A stretch of DNA of 36,136 nt from assembly GCA_018901125.1 (NCBI GenBank), contig JAHIFE010000191.1, positions 1-36,136 of the forward strand. Reading direction: 5' to 3'. The notes under the pieces are model-generated. The model worked only from the letters and a program-made list of their open reading frames with translations, made no database searches and was not told where the DNA came from. This DNA is from Pseudomonadota bacterium. Lineage in GTDB: Bacteria; Desulfobacterota; Desulfobacteria; Desulfobacterales; RPRI01. Every line of letters starts with the position of its first letter. The stretch's first letter is position 1. Below, piece after piece: positions 399-36,136 of this stretch. The translations under genes and the position numbers were made by a program.

Positions 399-1895
399 AT
401 GGCTGAAAGAATTCTTATTGTAAGCAACAAGGATATTGATCTCAAACTAATTAGACGAATTATTGATTCTAATAGATTTGACATAGTCGCATATACCCCT
501 TCTCATGACATAAAAAAGTTAATTTTCTCGGGAGATTTTGCAGCTATTCTTGCAGACTATGATTTCGTGGAGGACAGGGTAGTTGAGTGGATAGATATAC
601 TCCAGATAACAAAATCCAGATCATGTTTGATTCTTTATGGTGATAAATGCAGTACTGATAATATAGCAGAAATACTTCGAAAAGGAGCCTATGGATTTAT
701 TCCGCGGCCACTGCTTGAAGAACGCATATATACAACGCTGATAGATGGCCTTGAAAACCGCAAAGCTTTTATTGAGATATTGGCAATGATAGATGAACAG
801 AAAAATGCCAATGAAAGACTAGAGCAGGAAAAATTATCCCTGAGGAAAAAGAATCAGGAGCTGGATTTTATCAACCGTTTCAGCTGTGAGGTAGCCTACG
901 ATTTGAGCTGGAAAGATATTCTTTCCAAAATGATTAAAGCCGGATTTTTAAATATAATTGATTCTGACATTATATCAGTGCTTTATAGAATCGGCAACGA
1001 ATGGTATTTTTCCTGTTATTTGCCTGGTGTCTTGAGTGATAATAGCTCTGTAGTAAAAATGGAAGAGGATATTTGCGATAAATTCTTTTCATTAACCGGA
1101 GAAAGAATATTAACCAAAGAAGTATCAATTTCTGTACATTCATCTGACGCAAATGAGTTGTCAAATATTCCATCATTTTCTTCCGATCAATTGATTCTGC
1201 CTTTAATTCATAGAGAACGTCCATTAGGAGCACTTGTTATACTACCCAAAAACAGTATTTTATTAAAAAACAAAAACAGCGAATTACTGTCTACTCTATT
1301 AAATATCCTTGTAATGTCTCTGAACAATGCGCAGGAATATAATAAAATCATAAAGATGACTATCAGAGATGGTTTAACTGGGGTTTATAACCAAAAGGGT
1401 TTTAAGGAGTTTATTGAATGCGAGTTTCAAAAGGCCAGAAGATATAAAAGACCGGTTTCTATGATTATGATCGATGTAGATAACTTTAAGGCTATTAATG
1501 ATTCTTTAGGTCATTTGGCAGGAGATTATGTTCTGATTGAACTCGCAAAGCGTTTAAATAATGCATTGAGGAAAACAGATATTTTAGTGAGATATGGGGG
1601 AGACGAGTTTGCAATAATTCTTCCGGACACAAAAATGAATGAAGCGGAAGTACTTATAGATAGAATTCTGTCCTCTGTTAAATATGATTTCTTCAATTGG
1701 AAATGTGATAATTTTTTGGTGGAAATAAGCTATGGCATTGCTGTAATCAGTGAACTCGGGCTTATGGATAATGCTAATGATTTAATCTCATTAGCAGACT
1801 ATAGACTTTACAATGCAAAGCGGCGTTTACACCAATATTCACCTATTACATGCAATGGAAGTCTTCCTGTTTTCGGAACCTATTTAGCTTCCTGA
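399..1895 (+). CDS. Pseudo-receiver - GAF - GGDEF diguanylate cyclase
   Basis: A cytoplasmic enzyme predicted to make cyclic di-GMP from two GTP. Residues 1-125 resemble a response-regulator receiver, but the N-terminal acidic pair is replaced (IVSNKD) and the usual KP is RP (FIPRP), so it is probably a pseudo-receiver not switched by ordinary phosphorylation. Residues about 130-155 are coiled coil. About 160-315 look like a GAF sensor domain. The GGDEF domain spans about 325-490, with an intact GGDEF at 400-404 and an RxxD inhibitory site (RKTD, 391-394) five residues ahead, so product inhibition is expected. There is no transmembrane segment. The start is ATG; the Shine-Dalgarno is distant. 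The next gene, a CheD-HDOD fusion on the same strand, follows after about 107 bases. The GGDEF call is firm; the ligand of the GAF domain is unknown. Confidence 0.9.
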   Translation: MAERILIVSNKDIDLKLIRRIIDSNRFDIVAYTPSHDIKKLIFSGDFAAILADYDFVEDRVVEWIDILQITKSRSCLILYGDKCSTDNIAEILRKGAYGFIPRPLLEERIYTTLIDGLENRKAFIEILAMIDEQKNANERLEQEKLSLRKKNQELDFINRFSCEVAYDLSWKDILSKMIKAGFLNIIDSDIISVLYRIGNEWYFSCYLPGVLSDNSSVVKMEEDICDKFFSLTGERILTKEVSISVHSSDANELSNIPSFSSDQLILPLIHRERPLGALVILPKNSILLKNKNSELLSTLLNILVMSLNNAQEYNKIIKMTIRDGLTGVYNQKGFKEFIECEFQKARRYKRPVSMIMIDVDNFKAINDSLGHLAGDYVLIELAKRLNNALRKTDILVRYGGDEFAIILPDTKMNEAEVLIDRILSSVKYDFFNWKCDNFLVEISYGIAVISELGLMDNANDLISLADYRLYNAKRRLHQYSPITCNGSLPVFGTYLAS

Positions 1896-2002: not shown

Positions 2003-3349
2003 TTGAAAAAGCAACTTGTTTTCTCCGGCAACTACTTTGTCAGCAAAGAAAAAGAATTAATTCTGGAATCTTGCCTGGGCTCGTGTGTTGGCGTTGCCAT
2101 CTGGGATAAAGAAGCAAAGGTAGGAGGATTGATTCACCTGCTGCTTCCTGAGTGGACCGGATATGGTGAAATTGCAAAGCCTGTGCTTTACGCAAAAACA
2201 GGCCTGCCTATTTTCATCAATGCCTTATGCGAGGCAGGCGCCGACAAAAAACGTATGGAAGCATGCGTTGCTGGAGGAGCACTGATCGGACCGATATCTC
2301 AATTGGATATCGATCTTAATATAGGCGGCAGAACTGCTGATATTGTCCAGAATATTCTGACTGATGAGTCCATTATTATCTGTAAGGCAGAAACAGGGGG
2401 ATTATTTGGATATCGCTTGAGTATTGATCTAAGTTCATTTGTTAGTTCAATTAATCTTATTGCTGATATCCCGATGCAAAAGGATCAGAATTTTAAAAAA
2501 CCTTCACCGAATGATATAATCCACTCGATTAATGTAGTCCGACCGATTCCTCAAATTATTCTTAAGGTTGTCCAGATGATAAACGATCAAAACTATAATA
2601 TTCAGGAGGTTGCCAGTAATATAAAAAAAGATCAGGTTATAAGTGCTGCAATTCTAAGATTGTGCAGTTCCTCTTATTTAGGGTTGAAGGAAAAGGTTAC
2701 GTCCATTAATCGCGCATTTGCACTATTAGGAGAAAAAAATCTTTTTAAAATAATCATATCCGCTTCTATGGAGTTGTATTTTTCGAACACCGCACAAGGT
2801 TACTCACTTTGTAAAGGAGCGCTTTTCCAGCACTCTCTTGGCACAGCACTTATTTCTGAGGAACTGGCGAAGTTTACCGGCGTTGTTAAACCTGAGATAG
2901 CATATACTGCCGGGCTTTTGCATGATATCGGAAAGGTTGTTCTTGACCAGTATATTTCATCGGCATATCCGCTCTTCTACCGGCGCACCCAGATTGATAT
3001 GGCCGAGCTTTATGAAGCTGAAAAAGAGATAACCGGTTTTACCCACTCCGAAGCCGGAGGAGTCTTGGGAGAACGCTGGTTATTAAATGAATCTCTTATA
3101 GAAATGATCAGATATCATCATCACCCGGAACTGGCATCAGTGAACCCCGAATTATCTCATGTGGTTTATCTTGCTGATTTGTTGATGACAAAATTCCAGG
3201 CAGGACAGGAATTAGGATCTTTGGATAAGGGGGATGTCTCTTTAAGGCTTAAAAAAATCGGGTTAACTTCATCACAGTTCCCGGTTATTGTTGATCTGAT
3301 TCCGCAGTGTGTTCTGGAAGGTACAATAAATCTTCCTGCGCTCTCTTAA
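2003..3349 (+). CDS. CheD - HDOD fusion protein
   Basis: Residues 1-145 match CheD, the chemoreceptor glutamine deamidase. The catalytic Cys (C28 in GSCVGV) and His (H45 in GLIHLLLP) are present. The Thr expected six residues before the Cys is Glu22, flanked by Ser23, so activity is uncertain. Residues about 165-370 form an HDOD domain, a degenerate HD-type signalling domain, containing a GLLHDIGK segment. Translation starts at TTG, supported by AAAGGAAA 8-9 bases upstream and by the absence of an earlier in-frame ATG. It probably links receptor modification to another signalling output. It converges with the HD-GYP gene, 62 bases away. The domain calls are strong; the functional consequence of the fusion is inference. 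Confidence 0.87.
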   Translation: MKKQLVFSGNYFVSKEKELILESCLGSCVGVAIWDKEAKVGGLIHLLLPEWTGYGEIAKPVLYAKTGLPIFINALCEAGADKKRMEACVAGGALIGPISQLDIDLNIGGRTADIVQNILTDESIIICKAETGGLFGYRLSIDLSSFVSSINLIADIPMQKDQNFKKPSPNDIIHSINVVRPIPQIILKVVQMINDQNYNIQEVASNIKKDQVISAAILRLCSSSYLGLKEKVTSINRAFALLGEKNLFKIIISASMELYFSNTAQGYSLCKGALFQHSLGTALISEELAKFTGVVKPEIAYTAGLLHDIGKVVLDQYISSAYPLFYRRTQIDMAELYEAEKEITGFTHSEAGGVLGERWLLNESLIEMIRYHHHPELASVNPELSHVVYLADLLMTKFQAGQELGSLDKGDVSLRLKKIGLTSSQFPVIVDLIPQCVLEGTINLPALS

Positions 3350-3411: not shown

Positions 3412-4977
3412 TTAGATATTTTTTTGCAATTCCCTGTATAAGGGCAGATAAGGCTCTTGTTCTTTGGGCTCGTTATTTACTTCATCGGATAAAGTTTGGA
3501 AATCGTTTTGGTTATAGCTTTCAAAAAAAGCATCCACCACTTTTGGATCAAATTGGCTGCCTGTATTTTCTTTAATAATAGTTAATGCAACATTATTCTC
3601 CATTTTTTTCCGGTAAGAACGATCAGATGTCAATGCATCATAAACATCCGCTACTGACAGAATGCGTGAAAGCATTGGAATATCCTCTCCTTTAAGACCA
3701 TCAGGATATCCTCTACCGTCAAATCGCTCGTGGTGATGGTGAATTATCTTGCATTCATCAAACCACATGCCGAGATGCCCTATAATATTACTACCGATAC
3801 CAGGATGTTTTTTGATTATATCATACTCTTCGTCCGTTAACTTTCCAGGTTTCAGGAGAATACTGTCCGGAGTTCCGATCTTACCGATATCGTGCAGAAT
3901 ACCACTGATGTTTAGTTTTTCAATATCTTCCGGTGAGCATCCTATTGTACTGCCTATCAATCTTGCATATAACGATACTCTGTGTGAGTGTTGTTTGGTG
4001 TAAGGGTCCTTTGCCTCGATTATTTTAACAAATGCATAAAGCGTTGAAAACAGGTTTTCAAAGATATTTTCATAAAGCACCTGATTTTCTACCAAAGAAG
4101 ATGCTTTATTCAACAGAAAATTCATATAATAAAGATCTTTATTTATGAAATAGCGGGCATTGTCATTGATAAACAATACAAGAATACCGAATGTATTTGA
4201 TTTAATTTTAAGAGGAACAGCCATTGTACTGCTGAAGTTATTATTGCTCTTGATAATAAGAGGTATTCCTTCATCTGCAACTTTTTTAATATTATGCTTT
4301 ACGATATTACTAATGGCTGCTGCATGACCATTATCGGACCGGGGATAAGACGCAAGAACTGTTGGATCGTTATGGTTGTTGTAGAAGATGCAAAAATATA
4401 CTTCATCACATTTAGTAATTTCTGCGGCCAGTTGGACAAGAGTGTTTAAAAGCTCCCTTGTACCTGATGGATTTTCCAGTTTCTGAAGAATAAGGTTTAC
4501 TACTTCAACTTCCTTAAGTTTCTGTTGTAATTCCAAATTTATTTTTACAATTTCCCGGTTTTTTTCAGTAGCCTCTTTCAACAGTATACTGTTTACAAAC
4601 AGTTCCCTTTCTTTCATTACCCGCTGGATAGTCTGCTGAATTTTTGACATTTCAAACGGCTTTGTTAAGAAATCTACTACCCCGTTTTTCAAGGTTTTTA
4701 TTGCATTCTCTGCTGTAGGATGTCCGGTTATCATTACAATCGGTATGGTATTATCATGAAGATGGATCTGTTTGGCAAGCTCTATTCCATCTATTTCAGG
4801 CATGGAAATATCTAGAAAACAACAATCGATTTTTTGTTGTTTGATAATTTCGATAGCAATTAGTCCGTTGTTTTCGGCAATGACATTATAATTGGTGGTG
4901 GCTTCAAGATATTCCTTGAATATTTGCAATATGGAAAATTCGTCATCAACAATCATTATTTTTAGAGGTTCTTTCAT
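3412..4977 (-). CDS. RpfG-type response regulator: receiver - GAF - HD-GYP phosphodiesterase
   Basis: Predicted c-di-GMP phosphodiesterase controlled by phosphorylation. The receiver (1-120) keeps the acidic pair D11-D12, phospho-acceptor D56 and K106. A helical linker leads to a GAF-like domain (about 165-300). The HD-GYP domain covers about 310-480, with HD at 362-363 (HDIGK), an HHHH run, and GYP at 423-425 inside the signature GRGYPDG, so catalysis should be intact. It is the last gene of the minus-strand run fliD-fliS-fliT-flaG-RR-HD-GYP and follows the response regulator by 17 bases with a weak Shine-Dalgarno. Its position implies that c-di-GMP breakdown is expressed together with filament assembly. 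Domain calls are secure; the partner kinase is not in the window. Confidence 0.92.
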   Translation of the reverse strand: MKEPLKIMIVDDEFSILQIFKEYLEATTNYNVIAENNGLIAIEIIKQQKIDCCFLDISMPEIDGIELAKQIHLHDNTIPIVMITGHPTAENAIKTLKNGVVDFLTKPFEMSKIQQTIQRVMKERELFVNSILLKEATEKNREIVKINLELQQKLKEVEVVNLILQKLENPSGTRELLNTLVQLAAEITKCDEVYFCIFYNNHNDPTVLASYPRSDNGHAAAISNIVKHNIKKVADEGIPLIIKSNNNFSSTMAVPLKIKSNTFGILVLFINDNARYFINKDLYYMNFLLNKASSLVENQVLYENIFENLFSTLYAFVKIIEAKDPYTKQHSHRVSLYARLIGSTIGCSPEDIEKLNISGILHDIGKIGTPDSILLKPGKLTDEEYDIIKKHPGIGSNIIGHLGMWFDECKIIHHHHERFDGRGYPDGLKGEDIPMLSRILSVADVYDALTSDRSYRKKMENNVALTIIKENTGSQFDPKVVDAFFESYNQNDFQTLSDEVNNEPKEQEPYLPLYRELQKNI

Positions 4978-6990: not shown

Positions 6991-9900
6991 TTAATTGCTC
7001 CCCCATGAGCTGTATAATGAACTTATCTGACCGGCAAGCCAGTTGCTTTGATTCTGCAACTTATTTAAGGTTAATTCCATTGCAACAAACCGGTTAATCA
7101 TCTGCTCTGACTTTCTATCAAGACGCTCTTCCATATCTTCGATCTGTTTATCTGTTTGCTGCACCTGGTCCTGAAGCGAATTCTGCTTGAAGGCTACATA
7201 TCCTTCAAGCGTATCGGTGATGCCAAAGAGTGTTCGATCAAACAACTCTGCAACTCCTAAAGTCAGCTTTATAGTTCCGATTTCACCTGTTGATGTTCCG
7301 GTGTATTTAACTACCAGTCCGTCAATGTTTGCTTCATTACTGTTTCCCGTGAGGATCTGGCCAGCACCGGTTGACGCTTCACCATTTATTGTTCCTGCCA
7401 CATCTATCCCGTTATCAACCGTTTGGTCGCCTTCTGTCCACAAAAGGTTGTTTTCCTGACTGATAGTAAATGAATTTCCAGTTCCATATTTATCATGATT
7501 AAGAACCATATGATTTCCGGCATCACCTGATGCGGTTATGTTTATAGCATAACGCCCTTTCTGCCCATTTGCATTTGTCGCGAGAACTTCTCCGAAATCC
7601 AGATCGTGCGCGCTTGTGTAATCTAATGTCAGCGCTACGCTGCTTGAGCCTGGAGTGTTATCGGTTATCATGATTTGTCCTGATGCATTGATATCGGCTG
7701 CGACCTGGTTCCCGAAGGCTGTTTTTATGGCAGAAAGCAGACCCTGAACAGAATCAGTCGAAATATCCGAAATAGTATAAGACCCGTTTATCTCTGTTCC
7801 GTTACGGGTGCTTCCTGTAAATGATATTTCGTCGCCATCAACCAGATTTGCAGAACCGCCTGTGCTGTTATAAACACTATCCCATTTTGTAGCTGAAGTG
7901 ATTGATGCAACCTGCCCGGAATCGGCATAAAGTTGTTCGGCACCGGTAACAATCTGTGTATATGTGGTTTCCAATTCGCTGTTGATCGCATTGACCATTT
8001 GGCTCATCGACATTGTACTTGTTAGGTTAACGACAGCGACACTGTCTCCCTCTGTAATCGTAAGAGTTTCATTACCACTTAAGCTTGTATTGTCTGAAGG
8101 CGCCGAAGTGCTCTGTGTAGCTGCAGTATCAATATTTAATGTATATTCACCACGTTTGGTATCATTAGTATGGGAAATATACTCAATGGTTCCAACGCTG
8201 CCTGCACCGTTTGCAGTAAAAAGTTTCTGTACATCATTAAAATTGCTTTTCAAATAACCGCTCAATTTCTTGCTGTCTACGGAAAGCAAGCCGTCCGTAT
8301 CTACGCTTATGCCAACTAATCCCAAAGTTGAATAATCGGATGAAACACCCCAGATATTTTGTATTAAAAGTGATGTCAAATCAGACTTTACGGACATCAG
8401 CGTTCCGTCTCCGAAAAGAACCCCTCCTGTCTTCTCTGTTGTTTCATCATATGAAGTCTGGGATTGGATATAAGACAAAGTACTATTATATTTGGCAACA
8501 AAATTATTTATGTTTCCCATAATAGTATCGTTATCCCGACCGATGTTTAAAGAAACTGTTGTTTCGGTATCTGATTTTAATAAATTAAGTGTAACACCTG
8601 CAATGATGTCATCAATCGTATTTTCAGACCGTGTAACAGTAACTCCATCCACAGTAACGGATGCATCTGCTCCTGCAACTATTTCCCGTTTGCGTACAGT
8701 ATTGTCAAGACTGCCGTCAGTATCAAATTTCAAAGTGGCGTCATCTGTTCCCCCGAAATTTTTTATACCTATTGTAACAGAAAGAGAACTTGCTCCGGTA
8801 GTATTGTCAACAACCATCAATTTCCCTTCACCGGTTATGGATGCAGTTACATTGCCGAATAAGGACTCAATCTTAGACAGAAGATCACCGACTGTGGTTG
8901 CATCAGACAGCGCCAGCGTATCATCTGATACGGAGTTATTGTTTGTATCCACACCTTCCAGATGGATATAATCCGTATTCAGATAACCCGTATAGCCGTC
9001 AATATCCTTGATCAGTGTATCTGCTGTAATTACCGACCCGCCGCTGGTATTTGCAACATTACCGCTTGCACCATATACATCAGAAACGCCGCCTTTTATC
9101 ATGCCCAGAGTTTCAAGAATATTGTTGCTATCGGTATATGTATTGTTGGCTCCTTCCACCATCAGTCTGTAATAAGTGATGCTGTTTTCTACCTCTGAAG
9201 TTATAGATGCAGTAAGCCCTGCTGCTGCAAATTTGGTCTGCAAACTGCTAAGGGTATCCGTGCTTAAATCGATATCACCGACCGACAGACCATTTATTAC
9301 TATTTCCCCGGCACTTGAAGTTTGAGTAGTTGAGAGATTAAGGAGAGACTTGATAGAGATATTAGTGCTGCTGAATGTATCCGTCCTGTCTCCGCCGGCA
9401 AGATGATTCTTTGAGGTTCTGGCGGAATCCGTAAAGCCAAACTGAGAAAGAACATCGGATGCTGAGCCATTTTGCAGGCTGATACCGTTACTGCCTGTTT
9501 TATCGCTGGTAAGGATCATCCGATAGTCACCTGTTCCATAACTTATAATACTGGCTGTAACTCCGGTTGGATTTGTGCCTGAATTTGCATTGTTGATCTT
9601 ATCCCTTACATTGACCAATGAATCAGTTGAGGTGAAGTTGACAACCGTTCCGTTAATCAGGATATCACCTGAATAATCAGAGCCAAGAGCGCTTGATCTT
9701 GTTGCAAAGGAACCGGATGATAGTTTCTGTGCAGCAGCCAGATTATTTACCTTTAATGAGTATGAACCTATAGATGCTGTGGTAGATGTAGTTACGGTTA
9801 CCAGATCGGAAGCTTTAACTGAGGAGCTATCGGTTGTCATAGCTGCTTTGAATACATTAAAATTATCAGTTTCATTAAGATTCCCTGCGGCCGTTTTCAG

Positions 9901-10074
9901 GGCAAGGAGTTTGGTATTAAAAGACTGCCATTCGGAAAGCTTATTTTCATAGTTCGTTTTCTTTGCGCTTACCAAATCGACTCTTCTGTGTTCAACGGCT
10001 ATCAATTGATCCACCATTGTACGCCAGTCAAAACCGCTTGAAAGTCCTGAAATCTGATATGTGCTTGAAGACAT
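6991..10074 (-). CDS. fliD: Flagellar filament cap protein FliD, unusually large
   Basis: FliD caps the growing filament and assists flagellin polymerisation outside the cell. The FliD N-domain is clear at residues 1-100 (ISGLSSGFDWRTMVDQLI), and the C-domain begins near 471 (VTVDGVTV) and ends in a coiled-coil and low-hydrophobic terminus (about 960-1027). At 1027 residues it is roughly twice the usual 450-600. The extra length sits in the surface-exposed middle: about 180-470 contains flagellin-IN-like repeats, and about 620-890 is an insertion that splits the C-domain. Two of the inserted segments (near 370-450 and 746-835) share a pattern DDTL/DEIS...VxxLLSxI...FGN...ITxxGxxMxxDNTxGxSS. 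First gene of its operon, with a sigma-28 promoter about 70 bases upstream and a GAGGGG Shine-Dalgarno. Confidence 0.95.
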   Translation of the reverse strand: MSSSTYQISGLSSGFDWRTMVDQLIAVEHRRVDLVSAKKTNYENKLSEWQSFNTKLLALKTAAGNLNETDNFNVFKAAMTTDSSSVKASDLVTVTTSTTASIGSYSLKVNNLAAAQKLSSGSFATRSSALGSDYSGDILINGTVVNFTSTDSLVNVRDKINNANSGTNPTGVTASIISYGTGDYRMILTSDKTGSNGISLQNGSASDVLSQFGFTDSARTSKNHLAGGDRTDTFSSTNISIKSLLNLSTTQTSSAGEIVINGLSVGDIDLSTDTLSSLQTKFAAAGLTASITSEVENSITYYRLMVEGANNTYTDSNNILETLGMIKGGVSDVYGASGNVANTSGGSVITADTLIKDIDGYTGYLNTDYIHLEGVDTNNNSVSDDTLALSDATTVGDLLSKIESLFGNVTASITGEGKLMVVDNTTGASSLSVTIGIKNFGGTDDATLKFDTDGSLDNTVRKREIVAGADASVTVDGVTVTRSENTIDDIIAGVTLNLLKSDTETTVSLNIGRDNDTIMGNINNFVAKYNSTLSYIQSQTSYDETTEKTGGVLFGDGTLMSVKSDLTSLLIQNIWGVSSDYSTLGLVGISVDTDGLLSVDSKKLSGYLKSNFNDVQKLFTANGAGSVGTIEYISHTNDTKRGEYTLNIDTAATQSTSAPSDNTSLSGNETLTITEGDSVAVVNLTSTMSMSQMVNAINSELETTYTQIVTGAEQLYADSGQVASITSATKWDSVYNSTGGSANLVDGDEISFTGSTRNGTEINGSYTISDISTDSVQGLLSAIKTAFGNQVAADINASGQIMITDNTPGSSSVALTLDYTSAHDLDFGEVLATNANGQKGRYAINITASGDAGNHMVLNHDKYGTGNSFTISQENNLLWTEGDQTVDNGIDVAGTINGEASTGAGQILTGNSNEANIDGLVVKYTGTSTGEIGTIKLTLGVAELFDRTLFGITDTLEGYVAFKQNSLQDQVQQTDKQIEDMEERLDRKSEQMINRFVAMELTLNKLQNQSNWLAGQISSLYSSWGSN

Positions 10075-29389: not shown

Positions 29390-31105
29390 TTAAAAATCTT
29401 TAAAGTCATCTTCATCCATCGGAATTAACTGTTCAGGCTTTAGTTTCTTGTTGTCTCTACCGACTCCCTGTTTTCTTTCATAGCTGCTTGAATCAGGATC
29501 AGGAAGTGCGCTTTGCTCTTCATATTTATATCGTCGTCTGTCACTATTTTGAGTTTCTCTTCCACCACTCTTAAGCAATGACCTTGAGCTATATAATCCG
29601 TTGGTATGTTGTTTACCTCCTATTACCAACACCAGATCTCCGACATATTGCTTAAGTTGCTCTGCCTGAGCATTCATCTGACCGGAAGCACTGGCAGATT
29701 CTTCCGCATTGGCAGCATTCCGCTGTACTATTTTATCCATCTCTGCAACAGCCTTGTTTATTTGCTCAATACCCTGAGACTGCTCTTTTGATGCAGCTGC
29801 AATTTCTCCCACCAACTCACCAACTTTTGAGGTGGTGGTGGAAACATCCTGGAAGGCCTTATTGGTTTTTGTTACCAGTTCAGAACCTTCTCTTACCTTT
29901 TTGACTGTTCCCTCAATCAGTTGCGCCGTGTTTTTAGCTGCATCTGCAGACCTCATTGCAAGATTTCTTACTTCATCGGCCACTACCGCAAAGCCGGCAC
30001 CTGCTTCACCTGCTCTGGCAGCTTCTACCGCAGCATTCAAAGCCAGAAGATTAGTCTGAAAAGCTATCTCATCAATGGTCTTGATGATCTTTGATGTTTG
30101 ATCGCTTGCTACTGAAATATCATACATTGATTTGGTTAATTCATCCATGGAGTTGTTTGCCTGTACAACAACCTGATTAGCTTCTTTCATAAGGTTGTCT
30201 GCCTGGGTTGCATTATCTGAATTCTGTTTGGTCATGGAAGACATTTCTTCCAGAGATGATGATGTTTCCTCTATTGATGCGGCCTGCTCGGATGCCCCCT
30301 CGGCCAGCGACTGACTTGATGAGGACACCTGCACTGTGGCTGCGACCACTTCTTCAGCTCCATCGGTAAGCCCTTTAACTACGCGGTTGATCGGTTTTGT
30401 AATGCTGCGGGTCAGGAAAAATGCAATCAGAGCTCCCAATGCAAGTGCGACTAATCCCAGAGAAAACATAATAACACGGGCATTGGAATAAGCACTTTTG
30501 GCCTTTATAAAGGCCTCATCACTTTGTTGACCCTGATAAGCAATAATGGAATCTATAGCCTCAGTCATCTGTTTTTGAGGAGTAAGCATTTCTATCGTAA
30601 TCACATCGGCTGCTCTGGCATTGTCTTCGGTTGAATTCAAAGTTCCGGCCATCGTAGATCCAAATTTAGTAGTATCAGTATTAGCATATCCGGCCAAACA
30701 ATATTCAATGGATCTATTCACTAGGGATTCGACGATTTGTTGCTTATTAAGTATGTCAGCTATAAGCTTTTTACCTTTTTCGTCTTTGATTTTAGCAGCC
30801 AGCTTAAGATATGATTCACTGAATTTGGCACGGGCCTCATCAATCTTTTTTCTCTCGTTACGCACAGCATCACTCCCGATGCTTAAGACTGCATTTCTAA
30901 CAGATTGAGTTACAACATTCATCTGTTTTTCTAAATCATTGGCCAATAATACTGCTGCGTTTTTGTTATTGATAATATCTTCCATATAAGAATTGATGGT
31001 TTTTATTCCGGAAAGTCCTATTGCTGCGGTAATGCATAGTAGAAACAAAACGACCCCAAAACCAATCCCTATTTTTGTGCCTAAATTCATATTTTTAAAA
31101 GACAT
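29390..31105 (-). CDS. Methyl-accepting chemotaxis protein
   Basis: A membrane chemoreceptor. TM1 is at about 11-33 and TM2 about 210-232, with a mostly helical periplasmic region of about 175 residues (4HB_MCP-like) between them. HAMP follows (about 233-285), then the signalling domain with the highly conserved hairpin tip [25 protein letters not shown] (read over about 345-369) for CheA/CheW contact. Glu/Gln-rich helices on both sides offer methylation sites for CheR, CheB and CheD. The C-terminus is a 60-residue flexible linker ending [10 protein letters not shown], which may tether modification enzymes. AAGGAGGA lies 6 bases before the ATG. It lies 65 bases downstream of cheW. The ligand is unknown. 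Confidence 0.95.
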
Positions 31106-31170: not shown

Positions 31171-31683
31171 TTATACTGTTTTTTCTATCATTGCAACTTC
31201 ATCACGGCTTAATACTTTATCGATATCGAGAAGAATTTTGATTCCGCCTTCGAATTTAGCCATTCCAAGTATATAGTCGGTTTTCAATTTTGTCCCGAAT
31301 GTTGGTGTTTCTTCAATATCTTCCGCCTTTATGTTCAATACTTCCGATACTGAATCTACTACAATACCGATCATAACAGTTTCAGACTCGCTTGATATTT
31401 CCACAACCACGATGCATGTCCGTTCTGTGTAATCGATTTTATTCATTCCGAACCTAAGCCTTAAATCAATCACAGGGATCACTTTTCCCCGAAGGTTTAT
31501 TACTCCTTTGACAAACTCCGGTGTTTGCGGAACCGGAGTTATCGGCATCATTCCAATGATCTCTTTGATTTTTAAAATACTTATACCATACTCCTCATTG
31601 GCTAATGCAAAAGTTAGGTATTTTCCCTCCCTGTCGGACATTACATTTATTGCCTGGCCCATTTTTTCCGCCAATTTTGACAT
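31171..31683 (-). CDS. cheW: Chemotaxis coupling protein CheW
   Basis: Links chemoreceptors to CheA. It has the CheW SH3-like double barrel: YLTFALANEEYGISILKIKEII, then PVPQTPEFVKGVINLRGKVIPVIDLR, then VVDSVSEVLNI and YILGMAKFEGGIKILLDID, all family signatures (each seen here in order from residue about 23 to 160). I start at the ATG at 31683 because AAAGGAGG lies 9 bases upstream; the longer frame to 31716 would place this Shine-Dalgarno inside the gene. It heads a cheW-mcp pair driven by a sigma-28-type promoter 240 bases upstream. Confidence 0.95.
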   Translation of the reverse strand: MSKLAEKMGQAINVMSDREGKYLTFALANEEYGISILKIKEIIGMMPITPVPQTPEFVKGVINLRGKVIPVIDLRLRFGMNKIDYTERTCIVVVEISSESETVMIGIVVDSVSEVLNIKAEDIEETPTFGTKLKTDYILGMAKFEGGIKILLDIDKVLSRDEVAMIEKTV

Positions 31684-31929
31684 TTGCTTCCGCCTCCTTT
31701 CTTTGGACAAAACCAAAACATCTTTTGGAAACCTTTGCGTAAAGCTCCCTTTTGCCCGATTAGCACTAACTTTGAAATAGACAATGATATTCCTTCAGTT
31801 GACATCCCCCTCCTTAAGCTTGAGCGCAAAATTGAACATCATTCATATGAGCTTTTTAGGAAAAGGCCATACTGCTTCACATCTTAACAAAATATAATGC
31901 ATTGTCTTCATTATACTGCCCAATCCCTA
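31684..31929 (-). other. Long cheW leader, possible small ORF
   Basis: About 240 bases separate the sigma-28-type promoter from the cheW start. On the minus strand AAGGAGGGGG is followed directly by ATG (31802-31800), opening a frame of about 50 codons that overlaps the cheW start. It begins MSTEGISLSISKLVLIG and is not recognisable. The Shine-Dalgarno is too close to that ATG to be ideal, so I do not call a gene. Confidence 0.3.
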
Positions 31930-32043: not shown

Positions 32044-32811
32044 TTAAACTGGCAGGACTTTATTATAAATACTAGGTTGTACATACTTAAAGGGGTGACT
32101 AATAGTATTTAAACTCTCTGCACCGCCTATAATAAGACAACCGGGCGCTTTCAGAGCGTTATGTAATTTATGCGCCACATTAGACTTTGTTTCATTGTCA
32201 AAGTATATAAACACATTCCTGCAAAAAATAATGTCATATTTCTGGGATGGTATAGGATCTGAGATAAGATTATATCTTTTAAAGGTTACCATTTGTCTTA
32301 TCTCGTTTTTTACGCGGACATGATTATTCCATGAGTTTGTGCCTTTTTGGAAATATTTTCTAAGAATATCGGGAGGAAGATTTTTTGCTTTCTCTATAGA
32401 ATATATCCCGTTTTGTCCCATCCGCAGCATTCGTGTTGATATGTCCGATGCAATTATGGATGGTTTAAATCCCTTTTCAAGACAGTAAATTGCCAAAGAA
32501 TACGGCTCTTCACCGCTGGATGAAGCAGCACACCATATATTCATATGGTCTTTCGTTAGATATTTAAAATGATGGCTTTCTCTGAAGAAATAGGTATGAT
32601 TGGTAGATACAGCGTCAAGAAAATTTATTAGTTCTCTTTGATCATTTTCCAGAACTTTTAAATATTCTTTAACGGATTTTATACCGGTAGAACGCAAACG
32701 CTTGTCAAGGCGAGATTGCAAAAGTTGTTTTTTCCCATCATGAAGATTTATTCCGCATTCATGATAAACAATTTCGCTGAGTCTCTTGAATTGCCTGGTT
32801 GTTAAATCCAT
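32044..32811 (-). CDS. cheR: Chemoreceptor methyltransferase CheR, compact form
   Basis: SAM-dependent methylation of receptor glutamates. The N-terminal helical domain (MDLTTRQFKRLSEIVYHECGI, then LQSRLDKRLRSTG) is followed by STNHTYFFRE, the SAM motif SSSGEEPYSLA, DIS, and CRNVFIYFD, all canonical. The usual 10-20-residue linker between the FFRE helix and the SAM strand (LPEL...LRIWSAG in others) is cut to YLTKDHMNIWCAAS, making a compact CheR of 255 residues. The ATG at 32811 is chosen from family alignment; no good Shine-Dalgarno is seen, and an in-frame GTG at 32862 is the alternative. It is separated from cheW by the cheW promoter region. Confidence 0.9.
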   Translation of the reverse strand: MDLTTRQFKRLSEIVYHECGINLHDGKKQLLQSRLDKRLRSTGIKSVKEYLKVLENDQRELINFLDAVSTNHTYFFRESHHFKYLTKDHMNIWCAASSSGEEPYSLAIYCLEKGFKPSIIASDISTRMLRMGQNGIYSIEKAKNLPPDILRKYFQKGTNSWNNHVRVKNEIRQMVTFKRYNLISDPIPSQKYDIIFCRNVFIYFDNETKSNVAHKLHNALKAPGCLIIGGAESLNTISHPFKYVQPSIYNKVLPV

Positions 32812-32862
32812 TTGGCAGAACTCTGGCCTTCTCAATTTATGAACGGTCAAATTTAATAACAC

Positions 32863-33547: not shown

Positions 33548-33612
33548 AATTGCTAACATATTTTCTAAAGTATGGAGTTATTTCCATCGTCAAAATTGTA
33601 CCGGGGATAAAG

Positions 33613-34233
33613 ATGCTTTCAAAAAGAAGAGAATTACGCTCGGATGTGAGAACAAGTTTATCATATGCAGTCAAATATGAAATAATCTCTCCTGAAGAAT
33701 ATTATCTTATTAAAAATAAATCTGATTCTCTTCTGAACCCCGATAGAAAAAAGTTAAAGATAGATCCCGTGCTTTCCGATAACAATGCCAAGATAGATTC
33801 TGATTTAAAGATTGATTACTATGATGATGCCTTATTGAAGTTTCTTGTTAAAATGGATGAAAAACTGGATATTATTTTATCTATGCTGTCAACAAATGAG
33901 GCCCGATCAAAAACTTTTAATCAGGGAACATGCAATAATATCAGTGCATCGGGAATTAGCCTTGTTACATCCGAACCGGCAAGTAAAGGGCAGATTGTTC
34001 ATGTAAATATAGATTTATGCAAATTGCCCCCGGTTTACATTGACGCTTATGGCGAAATCGTCAGGACAACAGGTATTTACGAAGATAATATCCCAATGTA
34101 TAATTTAGGTATAAAATTTATAGACCTTGACGAAAAGGACAGGGAAAAGATTGTGGCTTATATTTTCAGTAAGCAAAGAGAAGACCTTCGTAACGGAAAA
34201 ACAGGATCAGACCAACATATGATGGACTCGTAA
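33613..34233 (+). CDS. PilZ-domain protein, probable c-di-GMP receptor
   Basis: A c-di-GMP-responsive adaptor, probably cytoplasmic. The N-terminus carries an Arg-rich RRELRSDVRTSLSYAVKYEI segment that looks like the PilZ RxxxR arm. After about 90 residues containing an amphipathic helix (LKFLVKMDEKLDIILSML), the beta-barrel follows with the second motif N-x-S-A-S-G (NISASGISL) and a C-terminal YNLGIKFIDLDEKDREKIVAYIF. The long gap between the two binding arms is unusual but known for related deltaproteobacterial PilZ proteins. I use the ATG at 33613 (GGGG 6 bases upstream); the frame is open back to 33550. It is upstream of cheA. Confidence 0.82.
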   Translation: MLSKRRELRSDVRTSLSYAVKYEIISPEEYYLIKNKSDSLLNPDRKKLKIDPVLSDNNAKIDSDLKIDYYDDALLKFLVKMDEKLDIILSMLSTNEARSKTFNQGTCNNISASGISLVTSEPASKGQIVHVNIDLCKLPPVYIDAYGEIVRTTGIYEDNIPMYNLGIKFIDLDEKDREKIVAYIFSKQREDLRNGKTGSDQHMMDS

Positions 34234-34448
34234 AAAAATCCATCAACAGTCTTAGTGCAAATAAATCACAACTAACGGTGAGAGCTAAACAGCAAAATAA
34301 TGAACTCAAGCAAAAGTCTTTATTGGACAATATTTAAGATATGAACCGTATTATATCGGATGGCAGACTTGAGTTCGTTGGAAGTATATTTGATCAAGCT
34401 GTTAACAACGAGCAGAAGGATATGATTGATGACAAAGATGTTAGATAA
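34197..34448 (+). pseudogene. Coding-like but startless frame with an internal stop between pilZ and cheA
   Basis: In the frame one base off pilZ, the sequence from about 34197 reads coherently as protein (SINSLSANKSQLTVRAKQ, then ELKQKSLLDNI), meets TAA at 34335-34337, and resumes at ATG 34341 (MNRIISDGRLEFVGSIFDQA) to TAA at 34446. No start codon with a Shine-Dalgarno serves the first part. It may be a decayed small gene, or a pilZ C-terminal extension thrown out of frame at the A5 run 34196-34200. The family is not recognised. Confidence 0.35.
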
Positions 34449-36136
34449 TATTAGTCGGGAAATTGAGTCTCTTGCGCTAGAAACGGTGATGCTGGACACC
34501 GAAGATGTGCCAAGTCTGGGAAAAACCGTAAAATCAATCGAGTCTATTATTGAACTGTCGGAAGCGCTAAAAGAACAGGCGCTGATATCAATCAGCAAAG
34601 CAATGAAAGAGTATATTGGATCCGTTATTTTGAGGGAAACTACGGATTTGGTTCCTTTTGAAAAAGGTATCTCCTTCATGCAGAAAATTGCCGGGGATAT
34701 ATCCAAAGGCAAAAGTTACGAAGGGGATATATCCGAACTGATAGCTGGCTTAAGCCATCAGGTTAATGATGAACTTGAATCGTCAGGCGATAAGGATATT
34801 GAAACCGATACAGATGCTTGTCCGGCAAATATTTCAGCGCCAGTAAAAATTAACGATGAAGACAGGGAAATTATTTCCGATTTTGTTGTTGAATCACTTG
34901 ATAACCTGGCATCTATCGAAGTCAAACTTATGGACCTTGAGCAGGATCCCGGCGATGCTGAGACAATCAATGCCATATTCAGACCATTTCATACCGTTAA
35001 AGGTGTCTCGGGGTTTTTGAATTTTAACAAGATTAATAAATTTGCCCATACAGTTGAGAACTTGCTGGACAAGGCACGAAACGGTGAAGTAACAATTAAC
35101 GGTGAAATAATTGACGTAATTTTAGAAAGCGTGGACATCTTAAAAACTATGATTGAAAATGTCAGAAGTTCTCTCGATTCCGGAATGCTTTCTGAGGGCA
35201 ACGAAGATACCGGAAGCATTATGCTAAGAATCGAAGAACTTATTTCTCCAACATCGAAGGATAAGAAAAAACGTTTGGGAGAAATGCTTATTTCATCCGG
35301 TACGGTTACTGAAGCAGATATCAATGAAGCACTGGAAATCCAGCAAAAAAAACCGGAAATGAAATTAGGCCAGATACTGGTTGAACACGAAAAAGTTAAA
35401 ACAAAGGCCGTAGTTTCATCTCTAAGAGAGCAGAAACGCGCGGATGCTATCGAAACACTCCAGGTGAAGGTAGATACTGTAAAACTGGATAATATTGTTG
35501 ATATGGTCGGAGAATTGGCAATTGCCCAGTCAATGCTGAGGCAGCATGAAGCTGTTTTAAACAACAAAGACAGAAAGCTGATTCAAATAACCAATCAGTT
35601 GAATTTGATTACATCCAGTCTGCAGAATACCGCCATGTCAATGAGAATGATACCGATAAAAAATACTTTTCAAAAAATGCTTCGACTCGTTCGGGACTTA
35701 GCCAGAAAAGCAGGTAAGGAGATACAACTTGTCACATCCGGTGAAGAAACTGAGATAGACAGAAATCTTATTGAGGAAATTTATGAACCTATGGTTCATA
35801 TGATTCGAAACTCAATTGACCATGGCCTGGAGCTTGCTACTGAAAGAATCGCAAAGAACAAACCGGCACAGGGCACTGTTTATCTTAAAGCATATCATAA
35901 GGGCGGAAACATAGTTATTGAAATAGGTGATGACGGGCGCGGATTGAACAGAGAAAGAATTGTGTCAAAGGCTCTTCAAAGCGGCTTAATCAAAGAGGGA
36001 GAAAAACTGACTGATGCAGAAATTGATAATCTGATATTTCATCCCGGATTTTCAACTGCCGAAAAGGTGACGGAGATTTCGGGAAGAGGTGTAGGCACCG
36101 ATGTTGTGAAAAGTAAAGTAGAAAAATTAAGAGGAA
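34429..36136 (+). CDS. cheA: CheA histidine kinase with tandem MshEN-like motifs (3' end outside window)
   Basis: The chemotaxis kinase, 569 residues visible. Order: helical N-terminal domain (1-110); HPt domain (about 140-240) with phospho-acceptor H188 in FHTVKGVSGF; two MshEN-like motifs (282-335), the first RLGEMLISSG...IQ and the second KLGQILVEHE...EQ; dimerisation helices (about 345-440); HATPase with N-box MIRNSIDHGLE (about 457-467), G1 IGDDGRGL and G2 GRGVGTDVV. In MshE-type ATPases such paired 24-residue motifs bind c-di-GMP. The second motif has Glu where Gly10 is usual, and the spacer is 6 rather than 5. Start ATG 34429 has GAAGGA 8 bases upstream; 34438 is the alternative. The CheW-like end lies beyond 36136. 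Confidence 0.93.
   Translation, partial: MTKMLDNISREIESLALETVMLDTEDVPSLGKTVKSIESIIELSEALKEQALISISKAMKEYIGSVILRETTDLVPFEKGISFMQKIAGDISKGKSYEGDISELIAGLSHQVNDELESSGDKDIETDTDACPANISAPVKINDEDREIISDFVVESLDNLASIEVKLMDLEQDPGDAETINAIFRPFHTVKGVSGFLNFNKINKFAHTVENLLDKARNGEVTINGEIIDVILESVDILKTMIENVRSSLDSGMLSEGNEDTGSIMLRIEELISPTSKDKKKRLGEMLISSGTVTEADINEALEIQQKKPEMKLGQILVEHEKVKTKAVVSSLREQKRADAIETLQVKVDTVKLDNIVDMVGELAIAQSMLRQHEAVLNNKDRKLIQITNQLNLITSSLQNTAMSMRMIPIKNTFQKMLRLVRDLARKAGKEIQLVTSGEETEIDRNLIEEIYEPMVHMIRNSIDHGLELATERIAKNKPAQGTVYLKAYHKGGNIVIEIGDDGRGLNRERIVSKALQSGLIKEGEKLTDAEIDNLIFHPGFSTAEKVTEISGRGVGTDVVKSKVEKLRG

Follow-up and report, generated by a model that had tools for sequence, protein, structure and literature searches.

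The window, that is, the whole 36,136-nt stretch of DNA analyzed here (contig JAHIFE010000191.1 of the Desulfobacterales assembly GCA_018901125.1), ends within a cheA gene (34429-36136, plus strand). The nearest named relatives also place the organism with Desulfobacterales; homologues of the CheA are present in Desulfospira joergensenii and Desulfobacter vibrioformis. The frame starts with an ATG at 34429, a TTG one codon upstream being another possible start, and encodes the first 569 residues of CheA; it is incomplete at the 3' end because the contig itself stops at base 36136, and related frames are mostly about 730-890 aa long. The protein is recognized as CheA by the Pfam matches to the phosphotransfer domain with its FHTVKG motif (P1, Hpt; 34867-35169, E 1.1e-13), the dimerization domain (P3, H-kinase_dim; 35464-35643, E 3.1e-10) and the incomplete ATPase/kinase domain (P4, HATPase_c; 35791-36132, E 1.6e-08), all on the plus strand. 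A complete relative from a Desulfonema limicola MAG (L044), which is 87% identical to the window CheA over residues 140-430, also contains the CheW-like (P5) C-terminal domain; the same region of the window protein would fall beyond the contig end. The Hpt, dimerization and kinase domains are shared with classical CheA (P1-P2-P3-P4-P5), as is the CheW-like end in L044. In contrast to classical CheA, the window protein has no detected P2, with an MshEN_N domain there instead (residues 282-335; 35272-35433, plus strand), which was recognized by profile, fold and conservation and contains a predicted c-di-GMP site, and carries about 130 additional residues at its N terminus (34429-34818, plus strand). 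The latter region has no Pfam family at E <= 0.01; among 81 sequences of the family, 78 have 70 residues or more of it. The possibility that it is a second, degenerate Hpt domain was rejected, given an hhalign probability of 1.2 against the Hpt region.

Located between Hpt and H-kinase_dim, the MshEN_N domain occupies the P2 position. The Pfam search reported no P2 or CheY-binding family in the window CheA at an E limit of 10, a limit to be read with the HMMER filters, which discard most matches above about 0.1. The statement of an earlier note on this DNA that the domain replaces P2 accordingly holds in the positional sense only, since more than half of CheAs have no P2 according to a 2023 survey (PMC10782961).

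Directly upstream of cheA is a PilZ-domain gene (33550-34233, plus strand; Pfam PilZ, E 6.1e-13). Its product contains RSDVR (RxxxR) and NISASG ([D/N]xSxxG-like) stretches roughly 100 residues apart, which we take to be the PilZ motifs, partly after PMC5013675. Farther upstream, on the minus strand, are genes for a CheR methyltransferase (32044-32862, Pfam E 1.1e-49), a CheW coupling protein (31171-31716, E 1.3e-39) and a methyl-accepting chemotaxis protein (29390-31105, MCPsignal E 1.6e-47). The opposite part of the window encodes a GGDEF protein, a putative diguanylate cyclase (399-1895, plus strand, E 1.2e-42), and a receiver protein of the HD-GYP type, a putative c-di-GMP phosphodiesterase (3412-4977, minus strand; Response_reg E 1e-29, HD_5 E 1.6e-41). 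The GGDEF, HD-GYP and PilZ genes that had been assigned to the same locus are therefore all in the window, but only the PilZ gene adjoins cheA, the others being about 29-33 kb away. The organism is equipped to make c-di-GMP, its genome containing 17 GGDEF matches, of which one has an internal stop. Among the 69 related loci with more than 1.2 kb upstream of cheA, a PilZ homologue is found upstream in 11, within 600 nt in 5 of these. L044 has a PilZ gene upstream of cheA and, downstream, cheD, an HDOD gene, a single-receiver (cheY-like) gene, cheX, cheB and cheZ. In the window, a single frame (2003-3349) fuses CheD with HDOD, which in L044 are separate and follow cheA. Another frame (6991-10074, 1027 aa), next to other flagellar genes, probably encodes an unusually long FliD-type filament cap, judged by position and by eye.

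Motifs and fold of the MshEN_N domain

The two MshEN motifs of the window CheA, motif I (RLGEMLISSGTVTEADINEALEIQ; 35272-35343, residues 282-305) and motif II (KLGQILVEHEKVKTKAVVSSLREQ; 35362-35433, residues 312-335), lie on the plus strand and are separated by 6 residues, counting residues from the ATG at 34429; the tandem pattern at residues 282-335 was thus borne out with the coordinates and the spacer that the earlier note had given. In MshE, c-di-GMP is contacted by positions 1, 2, 3, 17, 21 and 24 of each motif, with polar contacts made by Gly3 and the next residue through the backbone and by Gln24 through the side chain (PMC5013675, PMC11731258). Assigned after PMC5013675, the contact positions are R282, L283, G284, I298, L302 and Q305 in motif I and K312, L313, G314, V328, L332 and Q335 in motif II. 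Gly3 and Gln24 are present in both motifs, and both have hydrophobic residues at positions 2, 17 and 21 and one of the residues Arg, Lys or Leu that the extended consensus accepts at position 1 (PMC11731258); the c-di-GMP binder GSPII-C has Pro at position 1 of motif II (PMC11731258). Motif I departs from the MshEN motif by Thr at position 11 and Ile at 17, with Gly10 kept, and motif II by having Lys, Glu, Lys and Val at positions 1, 10, 11 and 17, respectively. In the engineered GSPII-A domain of PilF, the reported cost of retaining Ile in motif II, at both 17 and 21, is only 2.4-fold, a figure that applies to Ile and not to the Val found at 17 in motif II of the window CheA.

Gly10 is described as a turn residue that makes no ligand contact (PMC5013675) and for this reason was not treated as defining. 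The Glu at this position and the longer spacer had been suggested to reduce affinity; both concerns look minor, given that the motif II turn is kept in the AlphaFold model despite the Glu and that Gly10 is kept in only 5 of 61 family members (lost in 56), and that the spacer is 6 residues here, 5 in MshE and 7 in GSPII-C. The relaxed motif of Wang et al. (2016) has no match in the window CheA; in the close set of relatives defined below, it occurs at least once in 27 of 81 sequences and twice in 4, and in the distant set in 19 and 2 of 40, respectively. A relaxed double-motif pattern, which was devised post hoc with the window sequence already known, was found in none of 200,000 composition-preserving shuffles of the window CheA.

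The profile search for MshEN had a divided outcome. In single-sequence Pfam scans, neither PF05157 (Pfam MshEN) nor other MshEN models matched the window CheA. In L001, an MshEN protein of the same genome and the one protein checked in this respect, the PF05157 match begins directly after motif II and, from this protein alone, the model seems to describe the C-terminal subdomain of MshEN. In the window CheA, the MshEN_C subdomain is absent after motif II, with H-kinase_dim starting about 10 residues downstream, so that the domain is MshEN_N only and not the full MshEN/GSPII domain; Pfam is blind to it because the PF05157 match in L001 covers the C-terminal half that the window CheA lacks. Hence the Pfam result was discarded as an argument against MshEN_N, being outweighed by the start of the L001 match and by the strong matches of a family profile in the PDB. 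This profile comprises 22 members, namely the window protein and 21 of the 29 homologues collected from other genomes (L011-L039), the remaining ones either having a divergent form of the domain (6) or being without it (2). Among all PDB chains, it found 17 matches up to E 10. PilF, PilB and MshE account for all of the top 14 (E 1.3e-29 to 7.8e-4), the remaining three lying at E >= 0.78. The PilF value of 1.3e-29 is a sum over three copies, the best single copy being GSPII-C (9.5e-15), the best-matching solved domain and a c-di-GMP binder; MshE (5htl) is matched at E 3.2e-9. An hhalign comparison with five MshEN domains of the same genome gave 98.1% and E 7.2e-14, with the register as expected.

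AlphaFold2, run on an alignment of the window protein and 59 relatives (of the 66 chosen, seven were omitted for their longer stretches), predicts four helices at residues 283-290, 295-307, 313-319 and 325-343, with a mean pLDDT of 76 and a pTM of 0.54. A longer model (residues 250-569) has the same four helices, followed by about 10 unstructured residues and then the long P3 helix. AlphaFold, Foldseek and VIA agree on a four-helix bundle. Foldseek ranks 1-18 are N-domains of MshEN, GSPII or PilB, the first 11 of them c-di-GMP-bound, with no E below 0.001, and 5htl_B is superposed on the model at 0.9 A over 57 columns; the overlay on MshE proposed in the earlier note thus did reveal an MshEN-like fold. 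VIA ranks 1-11 are all MshEN-type, with Z 10.1 for 5htl_B versus 5.1 for the first unrelated chain, values in the range below about 13 that is not decisive for helical bundles. The MshEN-type identity is thus borne out, in the form of MshEN_N, by the profile, profile-profile, structure-prediction and conservation tests, and the presence in the window CheA of an MshEN_N-type domain with the ligand contacts kept is supported.

The domain has in common with MshE (5HTL) and GSPII-B and GSPII-C of Thermus PilF the tandem 24-residue motifs, the four-helix bundle, the contact Gly and Gln of both motifs, the Leu/Ile/Val clusters and the Arg or Lys at position 1. It differs from these domains in being located within CheA rather than an ATPase, in having no MshEN_C, in the spacer of intermediate length, in the loss of Gly10 from motif II, and in the Ile and Val at position 17.

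Conservation of the contacts and distribution in the phylum

Conservation was analyzed in a close set of 81 sequences (window plus 80 loci), 61 of them non-redundant, in which near relatives are favored because the 80 loci are the best-ranking ones among 436 retrieved with Hpt-domain patterns. Of the 48 motif positions, only four show no variation across all 61 non-redundant sequences, namely G3 and Q24 of each motif. The mean entropy of the contact positions is 0.74 bits in motif I and 0.47 bits in motif II, compared with 1.35 bits for the core of either motif and with 2.35 and 1.77 bits, respectively, for the rest; in each motif, mean entropy at the contact positions is below that of the other positions outside the core (p 0.002). 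Positions 1, 2 and 17 of motif I are variable (1.57, 1.27 and 1.48 bits); Pro predominates at position 1 (40 of the 61 sequences), followed by Arg (10) and Leu (7), whereas position 1 of motif II is Lys or Arg in all 61.

A wide set consists of 40 hits read residue by residue, one each from 40 of at least 45 families with spanning hits, which were chosen for spanning both halves of a composite MshEN_N + dimerization profile. In this distant set, G3 is kept in 40 families in motif I and in 39 in motif II, and Q24 in 30 and 40, respectively; all four Gly/Gln contacts are kept in 29 of the 40 families, and the Gln of motif I is lost in 10. Because the models used to pick the family sets include the domain, its presence in these sets is partly selected. 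For contrast, we considered 37 PF05157 loci from the same order (8 of them from the window's own genome, and two, L002 and L004, representing one protein), of which 22 had no sufficiently high-scoring double motif and were set aside; both Gln are found in 4 of the 15 MshEN domains that could be placed.

The composite profile matches in 169 of 296 genomes of the phylum. Among the 150 matches listed, 133 span both parts by hand count and 17 match mainly the dimerization part; 40 of the 133 were those read residue by residue, and the sampling covers one phylum. Hits with the MshEN_N-CheA fusion are present in at least 113 of the 296 genomes, the window's included, so that the survey of CheA for this insertion, suggested at the outset, shows it to be widespread in the phylum. 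A co-occurrence with GGDEF, which is missing from 0 of the 113 fusion genomes and from 13 of the 183 others (p 0.002), was given no weight because the genomes listed with a match include none of these 13, and the absence of any related CheA confounds the comparison.

Proposed function in chemosensory signaling

The simplest reading of these observations is that a c-di-GMP-sensing module might be located in the hinge between the phosphotransfer domain and the dimerization helix, with the predicted MshEN_N four-helix bundle filling the P2 position. By analogy with MshE, each CheA subunit would bind one c-di-GMP across its two motifs: the backbone NH groups of G284 and G314 would contact the guanines, the side chains of Q305 and Q335 the ribose-phosphate, and the Leu/Ile/Val clusters together with R282 and K312 would stack on the bases. 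Judging from the motifs and the model, c-di-GMP is likely to be bound by this domain. The missing C-terminal half is compatible with binding in a known case, given that a four-helix fragment of 57 residues engineered from PilF GSPII-A (residues 9-65, with the motifs restored) is reported to bind c-di-GMP without that half. Good motifs are no guarantee of binding, however, because GSPII-A with all six consensus residues restored did not bind, as described, until other features were removed. The bundle lies about 10 residues from P3 and tethers P1, so that ligand binding would alter the reach of P1 to the kinase site or the orientation of P3, and CheY output would then depend on both the receptor arrays and the cellular level of c-di-GMP. 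Gating of the kinase in this manner is slightly favored, and either direction of the effect is possible. As a whole, the explanation that a c-di-GMP-binding MshEN_N in the P2 position of CheA affects the phosphorelay is probably correct.

Alternatively, the domain could be a degenerate or structural MshEN_N that has kept the fold, binds no nucleotide and serves, between P1 and P3, as a rigid spacer or as a contact in the dimer. Non-binders of this fold are documented, and both the loss of the motif I Gln in 10 of the 40 distant families and that of the motif II Gly10 in 56 of 61 close sequences are in line with degeneration. However, invariance across all 61 close sequences is confined to the four polar-contact residues, and the non-binders, as described, differ at key residues (XpsE, PMC5013675), have H33 and R62 at the Gln24 positions (PilF GSPII-A), or are without the motifs (X. 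citri PilB), which makes such degeneration quite unlikely. Convergence is a different matter: an unrelated helical repeat, such as DUF4388, might mimic the motifs. DUF4388 is the Pfam model touched by most members (19 of 22), albeit weakly, with a best E of 0.00097, but the window fragment, at 17.2 bits, stays below its gathering score of 25 bits, the MshEN profile matches are far stronger and specific, and fold and motif register agree, so that convergence is disfavored as highly improbable.

The bundle might also be a docking platform that does the job of P2 by bringing CheY, CheB or PilZ to P1, in which case c-di-GMP would tune docking rather than the kinase reaction. This idea agrees with the location of the bundle at the P2 position in a protein in which Pfam finds no P2 family, with the PilZ gene immediately upstream in the window, and with the cheY-like, cheX and cheB genes that follow cheD and the HDOD gene downstream of cheA in L044; furthermore, a PilZ protein of X. 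citri is reported to bind the N-terminal region of a PilB. The X. citri analogy is weakened by the important contacts described there with the ND1 half, which is missing here, and PilZ adjacency extends to just 11 of the 69 loci (5 within 600 nt). The invariant positions coincide with the predicted polar ligand contacts, and nothing needs replacing, inasmuch as P2 is dispensable in many CheAs (PMC10782961). We regard a docking role as unlikely and retain c-di-GMP sensing in the hinge as the preferred reading.

The combination of MshEN with CheA is real and already in print: in one clause, Wang et al. (2016; PMC5013675) include 'chemotaxis protein kinase CheA' among the partners of MshEN, the same domain pairing as in the window CheA. 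The mention in the main text gives no taxon, position, conservation or test. Beyond this paper, we found no report of the pairing in the literature consulted on MshEN, CheA and c-di-GMP, and no test of an MshEN-CheA in the open literature consulted. The pairing is thus known in name, and the present analysis contributes where the domain sits in the kinase, that it is limited to the N subdomain, that the binding residues are conserved and how far it has spread in the phylum. In the 2023 CheA survey (PMC10782961), the section on auxiliary domains gives P2, receiver and CheC/CheX, MshEN does not occur in the main text, and the stretch between Hpt and the dimerization domain is described as unstructured in AlphaFold models of CheAs without P2. 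The abstract of the same survey presents CheA as generally having no sensor domain, a statement that a CheA directly gated by c-di-GMP would, if real, contradict. Action of c-di-GMP on a chemosensory or motor component has precedents in the PilZ chemoreceptors, Cbp1 and one of A. brasilense, and in CheY-like motor regulators, as described for these proteins; there, the nucleotide acts at the receptors or the motor, whereas here it would act at the kinase. If c-di-GMP binds, a large share of one phylum would take the swim-or-settle decision at the level of the chemosensory kinase.

The chances are about even that a widespread class of CheA in this phylum has its own c-di-GMP sensor, MshEN_N at the P2 position, that directly gates the phosphorelay; that such a class has gone unrecognized would be explained by the Pfam MshEN model corresponding to the domain's other half. 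More generally, given the start of the PF05157 match after motif II in L001, receptors with MshEN_N only may escape Pfam-based surveys. A separate observation on L001 (contig C97) is that the frame of this pilus/secretion-type ATPase runs, by eye, into a receiver-like stretch.
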